Shown in pieces: positions 58,800 through 63,736 of a stretch of DNA of 64,000 bases. The stretch comes from Pegethrix bostrychoides GSE-TBD4-15B (GTDB taxonomy: Bacteria; Cyanobacteriota; Cyanobacteriia; Elainellales; Elainellaceae). The notes below the pieces were generated by a model. It searched no databases. It had not been told where the DNA came from and was given only the letters and a program-made list of their open reading frames with translations. The stretch spans positions 1 to 64,000 of the forward strand of contig JAHHHV010000067.1 in NCBI GenBank assembly GCA_019359155.1, read 5' to 3'. Numbering within the stretch: position 1 is the first letter of the stretch; each line of letters begins with the position of its first letter. The translations under genes were made by a program, and so were the position numbers.

Positions 58800-59705
58800 A
58801 TGACCCCTCCTTCGGATTCTTCTCACAGCCCCTTCCAGAATAAGCCGCGCCCGTTCAGTCTTTTGCGAATGCTTAGCCTACTGCTATTAGGAGTGGGTTT
58901 GGGAACGCTAGGGACGCTCTGGTTCACGTCAAAAGCAGATTCGTCGGATGCAGTTGGCAGCGGTAGAACTTTGCTGAATGCGCTCCGCCCTTCCCAAGCC
59001 CAAGCCGACGTACCTAGCGCAACCGTACCCAGTGCGACCGTCTGCGTCAAAACCCCAAAAGGCTGGAACGAGCTAGCCTGTGCTTCGGGTGTTTCAATTG
59101 CTCCCCAGCTTGCTGGCATCGACCCAGGACAGGGCGCAGTCGTGCTGACGAACTACCATGTGATTGCCAATATGGGCAATCGGCCACCGGTGCAGTTGGG
59201 TGGCAAGGGCGAAATCTTCAATGCCGAAATTATTCGCCAATCGCCTGAGTATGATCTGGCCCTGCTGTTCGTTCCCAGAGCGCAGTTTCCTGTCGCTGCA
59301 CTGGCTGAGGCTTCTCCAGGACAGGGCACAGCGGTGCGGGCGATCGGGTTTCCCAACGACCAGCCTCTAACGATCAAAGATTCCACCCTGCTGGGCACCA
59401 CGCAGAACTGTCTGGCTGTGGCCCCCTGTCTGACGCTACGGCAGGGCACGATTACCTTTGGCAATTCGGGCGGGCCGCTAGAAGCAGACGGCAGAGTGGT
59501 TGGGATTACGCAGGGCGAAATTGAGGATGAAGTGGTGATTCCAGTCGAGCAGGTCAGACAGTTCCTGTCTGGGCAACCTCCTTCGTCTGCCAACCGCCAA
59601 TCCCAATTCGATCCAGGCTTCCCGCCCATGCAGAATCAGCCGATACAGGAGCCGCACTACTATCCGCCAGTGGAAGGGCTGCCTCCGTTCTATCCGACCT
59701 GGTAG
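58800..59705 (+). CDS. Trypsin-like serine protease, membrane-anchored
   Basis: A 301-residue protein with one N-terminal helix (about 21-41; LRMLSLLLLGVGLGTLGTLWF) and an S1 protease domain in the periplasm. The triad is His in LTNYHVIAN (about 121), Asp in EYDLALLFV (about 158) and Ser in FGNSGGPLE (about 223). No PDZ domain follows, unlike DegP/HhoA; the C-terminal tail is proline-rich. Substrates unknown. It is on the + strand after Nramp and convergent with the M23 peptidase gene. Confidence 0.88.
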   Translation: MTPPSDSSHSPFQNKPRPFSLLRMLSLLLLGVGLGTLGTLWFTSKADSSDAVGSGRTLLNALRPSQAQADVPSATVPSATVCVKTPKGWNELACASGVSIAPQLAGIDPGQGAVVLTNYHVIANMGNRPPVQLGGKGEIFNAEIIRQSPEYDLALLFVPRAQFPVAALAEASPGQGTAVRAIGFPNDQPLTIKDSTLLGTTQNCLAVAPCLTLRQGTITFGNSGGPLEADGRVVGITQGEIEDEVVIPVEQVRQFLSGQPPSSANRQSQFDPGFPPMQNQPIQEPHYYPPVEGLPPFYPTW

Positions 59706-59748
59706 AGGCTGCACTGGCAGTTCCTGTGAAGCACCAGACAACCCAGAT

Positions 59749-60468
59749 CTAAGGAGTCTTCTGGGCCTGCTGCCCCTGGTACATAGCTCGCAGAACGTAG
59801 CCGGGATCGACATAGTTGCCGGCATATTTGAGCGTCCAGTGAAGATGGGGACCGGTCGTTCGCCCCGTCATCCCAACCCGACCCATTCTGGCTCCTGCGG
59901 GCAGCAGTTGCCCTTCGCGGATTTGTAATCCGATTTCGCGATCAATGTTGTAGCGGCCCTGATCGTCCGAGTCCGTATAGCCCTGCATGTGGCAGTAGGT
60001 CGCTGTCCAGTCACCCGACTGCACCACAACTGACGTTCCACAGTTTGTGTCGTCCGAGACCTGCTTCACAGTACCTGTCCACCAGTTGTGCACATAACTG
60101 CCTTCTGGAGCAGCCATATCCAGGCCATAGTGAAACTCCTGGGTATAGCCTCCGGTTGGTGATTCACGGTAGCCAAAAGCAGAACTGTAGGCTTGCAGAT
60201 TTTCGACCGGGAAAGAAGATCCCTGCCAGTCGCTAGCTGGCAGTTGACTGGGCTGGAGTTGCCTAATTTCTGCCGGATTTTCGACGGTTAGTTCGTCTGT
60301 GGCAGCGGGCTGTGGATTTGGTTGAAGCTGGGCCGAAGGTGCGCTAGCCACGGCTGGAACTGGTTGAGTGCTGGCCTGGGTGCGTCCCCCCAGCGACACG
60401 GCGCAAGGTAATCCTAAACTCACAGCCATCAAAGCAAATTTGCAGCCAAGCTGAATTTTTTGCTTCAT
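59749..60468 (-). CDS. M23 (LytM-type) peptidase
   Basis: About 239 residues from ATG 60468 (MKQKIQLGCKF), chosen because it gives a good signal (ALMAVSLGLPCAVSLGG); a start nine codons upstream is also possible. The catalytic domain spans about residues 100-235: zinc ligands H-x3-D (EFHYGLDMAAP) and HLHW, plus CHMQGY, match LytM. It probably cuts peptidoglycan cross-links in the periplasm. The gene is convergent with the protease gene and lies upstream of an L,D-transpeptidase gene on the same strand, suggesting a cell-wall cluster. Confidence 0.88.
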   Translation of the reverse strand: MKQKIQLGCKFALMAVSLGLPCAVSLGGRTQASTQPVPAVASAPSAQLQPNPQPAATDELTVENPAEIRQLQPSQLPASDWQGSSFPVENLQAYSSAFGYRESPTGGYTQEFHYGLDMAAPEGSYVHNWWTGTVKQVSDDTNCGTSVVVQSGDWTATYCHMQGYTDSDDQGRYNIDREIGLQIREGQLLPAGARMGRVGMTGRTTGPHLHWTLKYAGNYVDPGYVLRAMYQGQQAQKTP

Positions 60469-60588
60469 TCCAACATCTACCATCGCCAAGAACACTCCTG
60501 CTATTCAACCTCATTCATTTAACGCAATATTGCCGTCTATGGCAACCCTATATTTCAGAACGAGGTTAATAATCATTCTCGATTGAGA

Positions 60589-61206
60589 TCATTCCTGCAC
60601 AATCACTCGTGTTCCTTCGCTGGCCCAGCCAAACAGCCATGCGGCCTGTTCGGGTTCTAGCCCGACACAGCCTCGACTGGCCGGAGCGCCGAAGTTGTCG
60701 TGCCAGTAGACACCGTGAATTGCATAGCTGCCGAAAAAGTACATCACGTACGGCACATCGGGGATATTGTAGCCTTCTCCCTGCATTGAAGTCACTCTGT
60801 ATTTTGTCTCGACTGCATATACACCTGGTGGTGTCCAATCCCCAACACGACCCGTCGAGACGATAGCTGAATAGATCGGAACATCGCCCTCCCAGGCAAT
60901 CAGCTTCTGATCAGACAAATCAACTTGAATCCAGCGTTCACTGGACTGCTGAAGATCCGCAATCCAGGCAGCAATAAATTCAGTAGGTGCGGGGGGTGGC
61001 GTTTTGGGAGAGCCAGTCTCGCTAGCAGAGACAGAGTGTTCTGCACTGTCTGTTTCTGCACTGTCTGTTTCTCCCGCAGCAGCCCAGCCTGGGGCCATGC
61101 CTACCAGGAATAACATGACCCAAGCGCCTGCCGCTGCTGCCATACCTCGCCTGAACAGATAATGCCCATGCCGTAATTTAGATTGAGCAATAATTCGATT
61201 CTCCAT
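60589..61206 (-). CDS. L,D-transpeptidase (YkuD)
   Basis: About 205 residues from ATG 61206 (MENRIIAQ). An N-terminal signal (GAWVMLFLVGMAPGWAAA) is followed by a polar Ser/Thr/Glu spacer and the YkuD domain (about residues 80-205). The catalytic stretch is AIHGVYWHDNFGAPASRGCVGLEPEQAAWL, with the H-x-x...S-R-G-C signature. It makes 3-3 cross-links in peptidoglycan or attaches proteins to it. A second YkuD gene lies 261 bp upstream. Confidence 0.9.
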   Translation of the reverse strand: MENRIIAQSKLRHGHYLFRRGMAAAAGAWVMLFLVGMAPGWAAAGETDSAETDSAEHSVSASETGSPKTPPPAPTEFIAAWIADLQQSSERWIQVDLSDQKLIAWEGDVPIYSAIVSTGRVGDWTPPGVYAVETKYRVTSMQGEGYNIPDVPYVMYFFGSYAIHGVYWHDNFGAPASRGCVGLEPEQAAWLFGWASEGTRVIVQE

Positions 61207-61467
61207 GCCAATTCCTGACAAATTACTCTAGTTCTCAGATTTCATATATTAGAAGAAAAATTGTGAATAGCTCAGAAAGTTTGTCGGCAATCTTGATGAA
61301 ATCTATGGTGAATTCCTTAATCTGAGAATGTTTGAGATAGATTCTCATTCTTAGATGTAGTTCATTTGATTCAGCCATAGCTTACGAAAATAAAATCAGC
61401 GTGAAATATTCAAATCTATTCCAGTTGCGATTCATTGAGAGGACAACTTCTCCCAATTGATCGCATA

Positions 61468-62043
61468 TTAAGGCTGAACCACAACCGGCGTACCGAGCTG
61501 AACCAGGCCATACAGCTCTCGAATATCCTCGTTAAACATCCGCACGCAGCCGTGGGAAGCTGCCCGACCGATGGAATCTCTGGTCGGTGTGCCGTGGAAG
61601 CCAATATAGCTGCGGCCATTGGTCCAAAACCCGATCCAGCGCTCGCCCAGCGGATTATCGGGACCGGGAGGCACAATCTCTCCGGTGAACGGATGCTCCC
61701 AGGACGGGTGCTCCAGCATGTTGTTCACTGCCCATGTGCCAAGCGGCGTTTCCCAGCCAGACTTGCCAACCGCAACCGGGTAGCTCCTCACCTGCTGGCT
61801 GCCCCGGTAGAGGTAGAGGCGGCGGTCGCTCCGGCTCAGGACCAATCGCACGGGCGCTTCAACGGGTTCGGGCCAGACGGGCTGGATAGGCGGTAGTTCA
61901 GGAATCGAGAGCCTGGGTCTAGGAATTGCAGATCTGGCCCCATCGCTTAGAGTTTGGGCAGGGAATTGGGCAAAGGTTGCAGCCTGCGCTGACAGCAGAA
62001 ACGCGCTGCTCAGGCAGATTTGCGAGAATTGAAGAAACCGCAT
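61468..62043 (-). CDS. L,D-transpeptidase (YkuD), second copy
   Basis: A 191-residue protein with a signal peptide (ICLSSAFLLSAQAATFA). The YkuD domain starts near residue 65 (VRLVLSRSDRRLYLYRG) and ends at the C-terminus. The catalytic site is IGFHGTPTRDSIGRAASHGCVRM, the S-H-G-C-V-R form of the signature, different from the S-R-G-C-V of the neighbouring enzyme. It starts divergently from the cobalamin riboswitch operon. Confidence 0.91.
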   Translation of the reverse strand: MRFLQFSQICLSSAFLLSAQAATFAQFPAQTLSDGARSAIPRPRLSIPELPPIQPVWPEPVEAPVRLVLSRSDRRLYLYRGSQQVRSYPVAVGKSGWETPLGTWAVNNMLEHPSWEHPFTGEIVPPGPDNPLGERWIGFWTNGRSYIGFHGTPTRDSIGRAASHGCVRMFNEDIRELYGLVQLGTPVVVQP

Positions 62044-62206
62044 GTCACCAAATAATTCGTCAGGCTTTTCTTAAATATAGAGTTAAAGCTCTGCCCCTGC
62101 TGCCCCGATTAATTTGCTGGGATTCACGCCGAACAGCCCAAACAGCTCGGAACACGAAATTTAATTATCCCCAGTTTAGAAAGGTGGTAGCTTAAGCTAA
62201 GCAACG

Positions 62207-62325
62207 CGCTCGGTTCTGATAGGGAGCAGCTATCAGAAGCAATGGGGAAAATTCGGTGCAAGCCCGATGCTGTCTCGCAACTGTGATGAGCCTTTACAGC
62301 TCTCAGCCAGGATGCCCGCCGAGCG
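62207..62325 (+). promoter_or_regulatory. Cobalamin riboswitch
   Basis: The outer stem CGCTCGG (62207-62213) pairs with CCGAGCG (62319-62325). Conserved elements lie inside in the usual order: AATGGGGAAAATTCGGTGCAAG near 62241, GCAACTGTGA near 62277, and AGCCAGGATGCCCGCC near 62305. It ends 38 bp before the cbtB start, so bound B12 would hide the start region or terminate transcription. Confidence 0.9.
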
Positions 62326-62363
62326 TTCAGCCGTCCATCAAGCTATCTGCGAGGCACAGAACT

Positions 62364-62552
62364 ATGGTGAGTACATCTTCTCGGGTGTGGCGACGCACCC
62401 AGCAAATGACGCTTTCGCTTCCCGTACAGGCCGGTTTGTTAATCGGTCTCTGTATGTTGGTTTTGTGGACGTTCTATTTCTCGACCTACCCACCTGCCCA
62501 TGACACTGTGCATAAAACTCGGCATCATACGTTGATGGTTGCCTGTCATTAG
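62364..62552 (+). CDS. cbtB: CbtB-like cobalt transporter subunit
   Basis: A 62-residue protein from ATG 62364 (MVSTSSRVWRRTQQ). One transmembrane helix (LPVQAGLLIGLCMLVLWTFYF) and a C-terminal histidine-rich tail HDTVHKTRHHTLMVACH match CbtB (PF09489), the small subunit of the CbtAB cobalt transporter. It is directly downstream of the cobalamin riboswitch, supporting cobalt uptake for B12 synthesis. The longer reading from 62256 runs into the riboswitch and is not credible. No CbtA partner is adjacent; the next gene encodes a different membrane protein. Confidence 0.85.
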   Translation: MVSTSSRVWRRTQQMTLSLPVQAGLLIGLCMLVLWTFYFSTYPPAHDTVHKTRHHTLMVACH

Positions 62553-62596
62553 GGGCGGGTCAGTCGGGTCAATATTAGAACTCTGAGCAGAATTCC

Positions 62597-63736
62597 ATGA
62601 AATCAATCAAATATCTGGGTTTCTTCCTGGCAGCAACTGTCAGCGCAACCGTGTGGCTCTGTGCCCTGTCGGGTGCCTCTCAAACAGCCATTCAACTTCA
62701 GACTGATCCGCCACTCAACCAGGTTATCCCAGCCACAGCGCCAACGCAGCTCACACTACAGGCCGTTGATTCAAACCAAACGCCGCTAGCAAACGCAAAC
62801 ATTCAGCTTCGGCTGCTGACACCCGCCAAATCGCCCTGGTTCACCTCGGACTTTCCAATTGTGGAAGGCACGACGCTGCTGGAGTTAGAGTCTGCCGCGC
62901 CATCCGGCAAGCTGCAATTTGAACAGACGCTGCCGATCCGGGGAACCTATCGAGCCGAAGTCAGAGTCACTCCCCAGCTTGCAGGCGCGTTTGAGCCATT
63001 CGAGCAGGTCATTTCTTTTGCCATCCCGGAAAACCCGGTCAAGTATCGCAACTTGGCGATTCTGGCAGTCATTTTGCTGCTGGTCGGTCTGGGAGGCGGC
63101 TGGGTGCTGGGCGGCAATCAGTCTCCACAAGCTGGCGAAATTGCTCCTCAACCGGCGCGAATGCTGCTGAGTGGGGTAACTGTTCTGGCCATTGTCGTGC
63201 TTTTAACGATCAACATGAGCGCTGAACTGGCAGAATCCCATGCGGGCAATCCGATGTTTCCGACGGCTCCAGCGACTCCGACAGTCCAGCAGGCCCAAAA
63301 CGTTCAGGTTCAGCTAGCTGGAGCGACAGAGTCCACGGTGGGACAACTGGCAACCCAAACGGTAAAAATTACCGATGCTGCAACCGATGAGCCCCTGCCT
63401 GATGTTGCAGTTAAGCTGCAAGTGGTGGGACTAGAAGATAACAAACCCGTGTTCAATTTTATCGGGCAGTCAAACCAAACGGGTGAGCTAACCTGGCAGC
63501 AGCAGCTCTTTGACGGCGCGCCCCATCAGGTGACTGCAACTGTTGCGCCAATTGCCGGTAGCCCTCGACAGTTTTCGCCAATTCGGGTGGCACACCGGGT
63601 GGAAGTTGAGGGGATCGCGCCACCGCTCTATATTCGGTTCATTAGCCTGGTGTATTTCACAGCTTTCTTCACCGCGAGTTTAATCGCTGGCATAGTGCTG
63701 CGCCGTCATTGGCTTCAACAGTCAGGCAGTGCTTAA
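62597..63736 (+). CDS. Membrane protein with two Ig-like domains, candidate CbtB partner
   Basis: A 379-residue protein with an N-terminal hydrophobic segment (YLGFFLAATVSATVWLCAL), a first beta-sandwich (about residues 35-145; LQAVDSNQTPLANANIQLRLL...GTYRAEVRV), two helices (NLAILAVILLLVGLGGGWVLG and MLLSGVTVLAIVVLLTINM), a second beta-sandwich (about 235-345; VKITDAATDEPLPDVAVKLQVVG), and a last helix near residue 350-368. It starts 44 bp after cbtB, under the same riboswitch. A conserved-looking MSAELAESHAGNPMF follows the third helix. It is probably part of cobalt uptake, but I recognise no family. Confidence 0.65.
   Translation: MKSIKYLGFFLAATVSATVWLCALSGASQTAIQLQTDPPLNQVIPATAPTQLTLQAVDSNQTPLANANIQLRLLTPAKSPWFTSDFPIVEGTTLLELESAAPSGKLQFEQTLPIRGTYRAEVRVTPQLAGAFEPFEQVISFAIPENPVKYRNLAILAVILLLVGLGGGWVLGGNQSPQAGEIAPQPARMLLSGVTVLAIVVLLTINMSAELAESHAGNPMFPTAPATPTVQQAQNVQVQLAGATESTVGQLATQTVKITDAATDEPLPDVAVKLQVVGLEDNKPVFNFIGQSNQTGELTWQQQLFDGAPHQVTATVAPIAGSPRQFSPIRVAHRVEVEGIAPPLYIRFISLVYFTAFFTASLIAGIVLRRHWLQQSGSA

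Follow-up and report, generated by a model that had tools for sequence, protein, structure and literature searches.

The locus described here raises the question of what a cbtB gene does when its neighbour is not cbtA but a gene for an unfamiliar membrane protein. Vitamin B12 synthesis needs cobalt, and CbtB is a protein of about 60 residues with one membrane helix and a C-terminal His motif, of whose role little is known to our knowledge. CbtAB has been listed among candidate cobalt transporters (PMC2667541), and in Methylococcus capsulatus growth was better after cbtB knock-down, as it was after cobalt was lowered (PMC13108547). Cyanobacteria are major producers of B12-type cofactors (PMC8123684). 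The cbtB gene in question lies in a 64,000-nucleotide stretch of Pegethrix bostrychoides GSE-TBD4-15B (positions 1 to 64,000 of contig JAHHHV010000067.1, forward strand; hereafter the window), between a cobalamin riboswitch and a gene for a membrane protein with two immunoglobulin-like (Ig-like) domains. We found the Ig-like protein to be the constant partner of cyanobacterial CbtB. Many cyanobacteria have CbtB together with this two-domain membrane protein in place of CbtA, in numerous cases behind a B12 riboswitch, and the pair probably serves the capture of cobalt for B12.

The Ig-like protein and CbtB occur in the same 28 of 146 cyanobacterial genomes (completeness of at least 90%), and the two genes adjoin each other in all of them, the cbtB of one (G110) being split by an insertion. 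The co-occurrence has a P value of 1.2×10−30 if the genomes are treated as independent, which they are not. CbtA was above the cut-off in none of the 146 genomes. The whole genome from which the window comes (5.72 Mb, 99.97% complete) likewise has no match to the CbtA model PF09490, which did detect Haloferax volcanii among 14 controls. The absence of CbtA that a sequence-only reading of the window had asserted therefore extends to the whole genome and to the class sample, where a standard CbtA would have counted against that reading. Two matches were removed before these counts, a CbtB match in G057 (25.8 bits, inside a 544-residue frame) and a CbtA match in G026 (21.5 bits, below the cut-off, in a 1113-residue frame).

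The same arrangement is found well beyond this sample. A scan of 84,980 species gave 129 relatives, of which the best 80 are all cyanobacterial by title, which leaves room for members outside cyanobacteria, and a relatives search of 60 genomes found the protein in 12, including the window's own; the 11 first relatives all have the order of riboswitch, cbtB and Ig-like gene seen in the window. We collected 113 loci, with a bias towards Nostocales, since a single ranked list supplied 80 of them. We left out L157, whose Ig frame is not intact, L205, and seven loci that their contigs showed to be duplicates; other duplicates may remain. A same-strand cbtB is present at 112 of the 113 loci, lying 1.9 kb away in L114 and being split in L149; at the remaining locus (L056) the contig ends 275 bp ahead of the Ig-like gene. 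The distribution is patchy, and none of four other genomes of the window's genus, one of them 77% complete, has the pair. L157 (genome G145, contig C121) is a second copy with a weak riboswitch, cbtB and a broken Ig-like gene with three stops in the matched fragment.

In the window, riboswitch, cbtB and Ig-like gene follow one another on the plus strand (Table 1). The riboswitch is an ordinary member of RF00174, scoring well above the gathering threshold of 31.5 bits (E = 3.3×10−12) and matching the model from 1 to 189 of 189 without truncation. It also scores 130.1 bits with R1, a covariance model of our own, a score that is not independent, as the window sequence is among the 19 from which R1 was built. 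In the riboswitch alignment, 16 of 31 consensus pairs show at least one change on both sides. The riboswitch region of the window taken alone folds no better than shuffled sequences (z = 0.67), so that the case for the riboswitch rests on covariance models. The GAGG stretch ahead of cbtB suggests translational control, and similar sequences of the TGCGAGGTACA type precede cbtB in L097, L093, L139 and L149. No terminator-like site was found between the aptamer and the cbtB start, or in the gap between the two genes. One promoter-like match (9/12) ends within cbtB at 62528; four such matches were observed in 2 kb against 1.0 expected. Since a divergent L,D-transpeptidase gene (61468-62043, minus strand) and a long downstream minus-strand frame flank the unit, the operon consists of two genes. 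The sequence-only reading had placed the start of the riboswitch at 62207, 13 bases late; its complete riboswitch, its 62-residue CbtB and its 379-residue protein 44 bp further on agree with our analysis.

The CbtB of the window scores one bit below the curated PF09489 cut-off of 27 (E = 1×10−5), and its length and C-terminal motif agree with the general features of CbtB. Eleven of 12 homologues match PF09489 at E ≤ 0.01 (best 5.5×10−8), and public records annotate 7 of 14 plasmid copies as CbtB-domain proteins. By its sequence, the product is a CbtB homologue, not a certified PF09489 member. The motif H...H..RH......CH is present at 110 of 112 loci, the exceptions being L079, where the Cys is lost, and L149 (4700-5300, G110), where an insertion has split cbtB but left the riboswitch and the Ig-like gene intact; the insertion contains a frame for an IS200-like transposase (PF01797, 108.8 bits). 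A sequence search of the PDB with a CbtB profile gave only Fc receptors (E = 0.46-0.64).

Table 1. The riboswitch, cbtB and Ig-like gene of the window and the parts of the Ig-like protein (positions in the window).
Feature	Positions	Strand	Basis
Cobalamin riboswitch aptamer, complete	62194..62337	+	RF00174 cmscan 59.5 bits
Stretch from aptamer to cbtB start, 26 nt, with GAGG ribosome-binding-like sequence	62338..62363	+	sequence
cbtB, 62 aa, one membrane helix, C-terminal H...H..RH......CH motif; ATG 62364, stop 62550-62552	62364..62552	+	PF09489 26.0 bits
Gap between cbtB and Ig-like gene, 44 bp	62553..62596	+	
Ig-like membrane protein, 379 aa, constant CbtB partner; ATG 62597, stop 63734-63736	62597..63736	+	113 loci; 28/146 genomes
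N-terminal hydrophobic helix (signal peptide or membrane anchor), residues 5-26	62609..62674	+	model, hydropathy
Beta-sandwich domain 1, residues 31-143, invariant DFP, EGT, P.RG.Y	62687..63025	+	models, conservation
Membrane helix, residues 147-171, begins with conserved KYRN	63035..63109	+	model, hydropathy
Membrane helix, residues 185-210	63149..63226	+	model, hydropathy
His-rich (sometimes Met-rich) linker, residues 211-231	63227..63289	+	composition over 49 homologues
Beta-sandwich domain 2, residues 232-341, macroglobulin/Ig-like, invariant H310	63290..63619	+	model, conservation
C-terminal membrane helix, residues 344-378	63626..63730	+	model, hydropathy

No family of Pfam or NCBIfam covers the Ig-like protein (two NCBIfam matches are far below cut-off), which also lacks matches to the CbtA models and to HupE; on this sequence evidence it is a new protein family and a new twist on the CbtB theme. 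An AlphaFold2 model built on 49 homologues is of high confidence (mean predicted local distance difference test score 89.2, predicted template modelling score 0.81). Its strands at 31-143 and 230-338 and its helices at 5-26, 147-171, 185-217 and 344-378 bear out the two beta-sandwich domains and several helices noticed in the sequence-only reading; three to four of the helices are hydrophobic. Both sandwiches are predicted to be periplasmic from the signal-like N-terminus. The linker after the third helix has 12.5% His over the 49 homologues, as against 0-1.8% in the seven other regions, with at least one His in 46 and at least two in 38 of them, and may bind metal.

Domain 1 resembles macroglobulin domains (Z 10.5; Foldseek E = 1.3×10−4), CrdA (VIA Z 9.4, root mean square deviation 2.7, 97 aligned residues) and PmoD, which came first in Foldseek (E = 6×10−5; VIA Z 8.4, root mean square deviation 4.0). 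Domain 2 resembles macroglobulin domains (VIA Z 8.5, root mean square deviation 2.3, 101 residues). A fold search with the full-length protein gave low template modelling scores to generic Ig and macroglobulin folds. Among the best 60 of 140 PDB sequence matches of the Ig profile there were transthyretins (E = 0.11-0.55) and one long grappling-hook protein (E = 2×10−5), no stretch of which passed alone. Folds of these types are common, and no function is shown by fold alone. A secreted 160-residue protein weakly similar to domain 1 (29% identity, E = 3×10−4), apparently a single sandwich, is encoded elsewhere in the window's genome (L037, 4051-4533, contig C80), where the adjoining gene specifies a membrane protein that has a GHCASMCGP motif. 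By eye, the secreted protein is akin to secreted proteins whose genes are convergent to the Ig-like gene at 7 of 91 loci.

The neighbourhood of the pair also points to cobalt. In G091, a tight row consists of riboswitch, cbiX (cobaltochelatase, PF01903, 199.7 bits), cbtB and Ig-like gene; G133 has cbtB, Ig-like gene, cobW and DUF1636 in a row, and G160 has cbtB, Ig-like gene and DUF1636. Across 91 loci, cobW directly follows the pair in four (L031, L034, L035 and L070; members of the cobW cluster checked with Pfam are L008, L012 and L034), and a DUF1636-type gene comes next on the same strand in 10, all Nostocales (checked with Pfam in L064). The window's genome has five B12 riboswitch matches, and the other four lead CbiMNQO, cobW, DUF1636 and corrin-synthesis genes (precorrin-8X mutase, corrin methylases and CbiG). 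Judged from gene content, the riboswitch and the cbiX, cobW and DUF1636 neighbours strongly link the pair to cobalt and B12.

The riboswitch is widespread at these loci but not present at every one of them. A regular expression for its core gave false negatives and stray hits, and the loci were scored instead with R1, whose 19 source riboswitches match by construction; a match counts as strong if it reaches 60 bits and lies ahead of cbtB, or ahead of cbiX or a small gene belonging to the row. Over the 113 loci, 50 matches are strong and 7 weak, 54 loci have none and 2 could not be judged. Of the 28 class-sample carriers, 24 show a strong match, one a weak one (G160) and three none (G098, G133 and G153). 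The Rfam model was applied to 23 of these carriers, and RF00174 exceeds its cut-off in 21; it is also found upstream of the pair in all 11 first relatives. We take the riboswitch-less loci, except L147 and L151, to belong to Nostocales from their genus names. On the protein tree, where L202 and L203, later rescored as strong, carry the label none, riboswitch loci are found to either side of the midpoint root, while a supported clade of 38 Nostocales rows is without a riboswitch (37 judged, one at a contig edge). This pattern suggests that the riboswitch is old and was later lost. Rescanning ten Nostocales loci without filters brought up nothing better than borderline remnants ahead of cbtB (E from 0.016 upwards), and ten others gave no match before cbtB on its strand. 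In the 38-row clade (L042, L080; 35 aligned), a conserved promoter-like block, TTGTCAA...ATATCTTT, lies upstream of cbtB in the place that the riboswitch has elsewhere; no regulator was identified for it. At the riboswitch-less locus L147 (4617-4973, minus strand, G098), a gene for an ArsR-family regulator lies directly behind the Ig-like gene. For the sequence-only reading, expression of the Ig-like gene independent of B12 would be a refutation; the loci without a detectable riboswitch go part of the way towards it and indicate that B12 control is not universal.

The pair also travels on plasmids. A tblastn search over plasmid records found 15 with the Ig-like protein, which is nearly whole in 14 of them; CbtB is present in the same 14, which include near-copies of one plasmid, and a plasmid of Leptolyngbya boryana is among the carriers; eight records in the Ig-like set and eight in the CbtB set are of conjugative type. 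Eleven plasmid loci were inspected in detail, and eight of them (L195-L200, L202 and L203) have a strong riboswitch before cbtB, whereas L201, L204 and L205 (the same as L045) lack a strong one. Several adjoin genes for a multicopper oxidase plus ZIP, for P-type ATPases, ArsR/SmtB, CDF or RppAB, or an opposite-strand NRAMP gene. A vitamin sensor is thus carried by plasmids, of which several have metal islands.

We then compared the pair with other transporters over the 146 genomes, counting CbiM, HupE and NicO; NRAMP, ZIP and CorA lie outside this count. CbiM is present in 116 genomes and 22 of the 28 carriers, HupE in 89 genomes and 11 carriers (one of them with a headless fragment), and NicO in 39 genomes and 10 carriers. 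We find no support for the pair depending on CbiM or substituting for it: CbiM is equally common with the pair (22/28) and without it (94/118, P = 1). A CbiM-type gene lies near the pair at 4 of 91 loci; at the riboswitch-less locus L055 (6478-7401), CbiM fused to a PDGLE domain is 1.3 kb downstream. At L139 (4392-4840, minus strand, G095), a hupE fragment without its N-terminal part (PF04955, 67.1 bits) lies directly behind the pair and is the only HupE match of that genome. Three genomes of the same genus as G095 have a riboswitch leading hupE, and we rejected a replacement of hupE by the pair at the ancestral place, as the flanks differ and only the riboswitch aligns. Elsewhere, L074 (3061-5869) has a riboswitch, a 103-residue protein (AHHGGSH, hydrophobic end) with no Pfam match, cbtB, the Ig-like gene and a gene for Fe/Mn superoxide dismutase. 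In the window, adjoining genes upstream of the operon (58800-62043) encode a trypsin-like protease, an M23 peptidase and two L,D-transpeptidases.

Taken together, the reading that we favour, with a probability of roughly 0.5, is that CbtB and the Ig-like protein constitute a periplasm-facing complex of the inner membrane which captures cobalt and serves its uptake for B12, either feeding a permease or itself helping cobalt across. When B12 is low, the riboswitch would permit the making of both proteins, which would assemble in the inner membrane so that the two sandwiches face the periplasm. Co(II) would be bound by the CbtB motif and by the partner's His-rich linker and then handed to a permease, which here would most simply be the riboswitch-led CbiMNQO and elsewhere might be HupE, NRAMP or ZIP. 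In genomes without a known permease, the pair itself might help Co(II) across. The Ig-like partner is real and conserved, as its sequences indicate, and its role in transport is putative.

Several observations weigh against this reading. The window linker has a single His (ESHAGNPM), and 3 of the 49 homologues have none. K149 and R151 of the KYRN motif lie at the presumed outer end of helix 147-171, which breaks the positive-inside rule. At 54 of the 113 loci, nearly all of Nostocales, no riboswitch is detectable. The equal frequency of CbiM with and without the pair leaves no dedicated permease partner visible. The Met-rich linkers of several homologues and the multicopper oxidases, ZIP and P-type ATPases near plasmid copies would fit copper or metals in general as well, and in G145 a Peripla_BP_2 gene (69.6 bits, BtuF family; L145, 2561-3511, minus strand) lies about 1 kb upstream of the pair on the other strand. 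We found no metal-binding or transport experiment on the pair in the literature.

The sequence-only reading went further and had the Ig-like protein take the place of CbtA in a cobalt uptake complex of another kind. On such a view it and CbtB, in our wording perhaps as an oligomer, would move Co(II) themselves. The constant partnership and the absence of CbtA accord with such a self-contained transporter, as do two genomes that carry the pair without any CbiM, HupE or NicO match: G059, a single contig which also lacks CbtA and has two riboswitch matches, one ahead of cbtB-Ig and one ahead of cbiX (the latter at 30.9 bits, under the 31.5 cut-off), and G091, where the pair shares its operon with cbiX. 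Intact HupE is also rarer with the pair (10/28) than without it (78/118; P = 0.005, or P = 0.017 with the broken copy counted, both uncorrected for descent), and the headless hupE fragment of G095 points the same way. However, three to four hydrophobic helices plus one from CbtB resemble no channel or carrier family in our sequence and fold searches, CbiM is also present in most carriers, and the window's genome has a separate, full, riboswitch-led CbiMNQO importer. G059 may have another route through a transporter outside the count, and G091 is a draft of 350 contigs, 94% complete. We regard a self-contained transporter as rather unlikely; of the earlier proposal, the constant partner without CbtA stands, and the replacement of the transporter is unproven. 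We consider it unlikely, too, that the pair is a distinct CbtA-free cobalt transporter, sufficient for uptake in cyanobacteria without CbiMNQO, HupE and NiCoT, which conjugative plasmids have disseminated together with its B12 riboswitch. If it were, the vitamin level of the host would set a plasmid trait.

The metal islands raise the alternative that the pair is a periplasmic metal-binding membrane complex for resistance or buffering, handling copper or heavy metals in general, with cobalt as one metal among several. Besides the plasmid neighbours and the Met-rich linkers, this would explain the multicopper-oxidase cluster near the pair at 35 of 91 loci (Pfam for one member) and the resemblance of domain 1 to the copper-linked CrdA and PmoD. 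Yet macroglobulin domains outscore CrdA by Z, which makes the fold no specific pointer to copper, a strong B12 riboswitch is kept at most plasmid loci inspected, and the operons with cbiX, cobW and DUF1636 point to cobalt; we find this explanation quite improbable. It is less probable still, and in our view very unlikely, that the pair aids the uptake or sensing of B12 or its precursors. Riboswitches do lead B12-uptake genes as well, as in Anabaena (PMC10878165), and the BtuF-family gene near the pair in G145 would suit such a role, but by eye no BtuB, BtuC or BtuF cluster is among the 28 neighbour clusters common to at least 4 of 91 loci, and the operon partners cbiX and cobW act on cobalt itself. 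The proposed cobalt-capture complex would bear on how species without HupE or CbiM obtain cobalt, and a constant partner in 28 of 146 genomes makes it a testable system.

These results can be set against the systems already described. The main text of a review of cyanobacterial cobalt transport names NiCoT/UreH, HupE and CbiMNQO and is without the term "Cbt" (PMC4284471), and our search of the literature on cbtB, DUF1636, HupE and cyanobacterial cobalt uptake, mostly outside subscription papers, gave no title on the pair among those listed, so that a prior mention is possible. The pair shares B12-riboswitch regulation with HupE/UreJ, the cyanobacterial cobalt permease, but HupE is a six-helix permease (PMC4284471) and, as said, is not matched by the Ig-like protein; in a hupE mutant of Synechocystis PCC 6803, cobalt or methionine relieves the growth defect (PMC4284471, PMC7689651). 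The periplasmic copper proteins of the YtkA-like/CrdA and PmoD type are small, metal-linked beta-sandwiches, and the similarity of the Ig-like protein to their fold does not clearly stand above that to macroglobulin domains; weak matches to PF13115 (YtkA-like/FixH-type sandwich) occur in 12 of 49 homologues (best E = 0.0024), and the window protein itself has none at E ≤ 1. Unlike these proteins, it has two sandwiches with a membrane hairpin and stands in a cobalt context. NikK and NikL are extra subunits of energy-coupling factor-type importers (PMC2667541), and the pair would belong, like CbiMNQO with NikK/NikL, to the theme of riboswitch-controlled cobalt uptake. Unlike them, it lies outside the cbi operon here, its two-gene operon not being a nik/cbi M-Q-O operon, and it is found with and without CbiM. 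Of 36 Pfam families, the 25 listed do not include DUF4198; CopC and NikK/NikL are likewise absent from the matches listed, and none of the three is excluded thereby, no fold comparison with NikK/NikL having been made. As for the riboswitch, its full-length match and conserved core are those of an ordinary RF00174 member. The closest system is CbtAB (PF09489/PF09490), with which the pair shares a CbtB homologue with a C-terminal His/Cys motif, B12-riboswitch control and cobalt/B12 neighbours, and from which it differs in that the partner of CbtB, with no match to the CbtA model, is a two-sandwich membrane protein.

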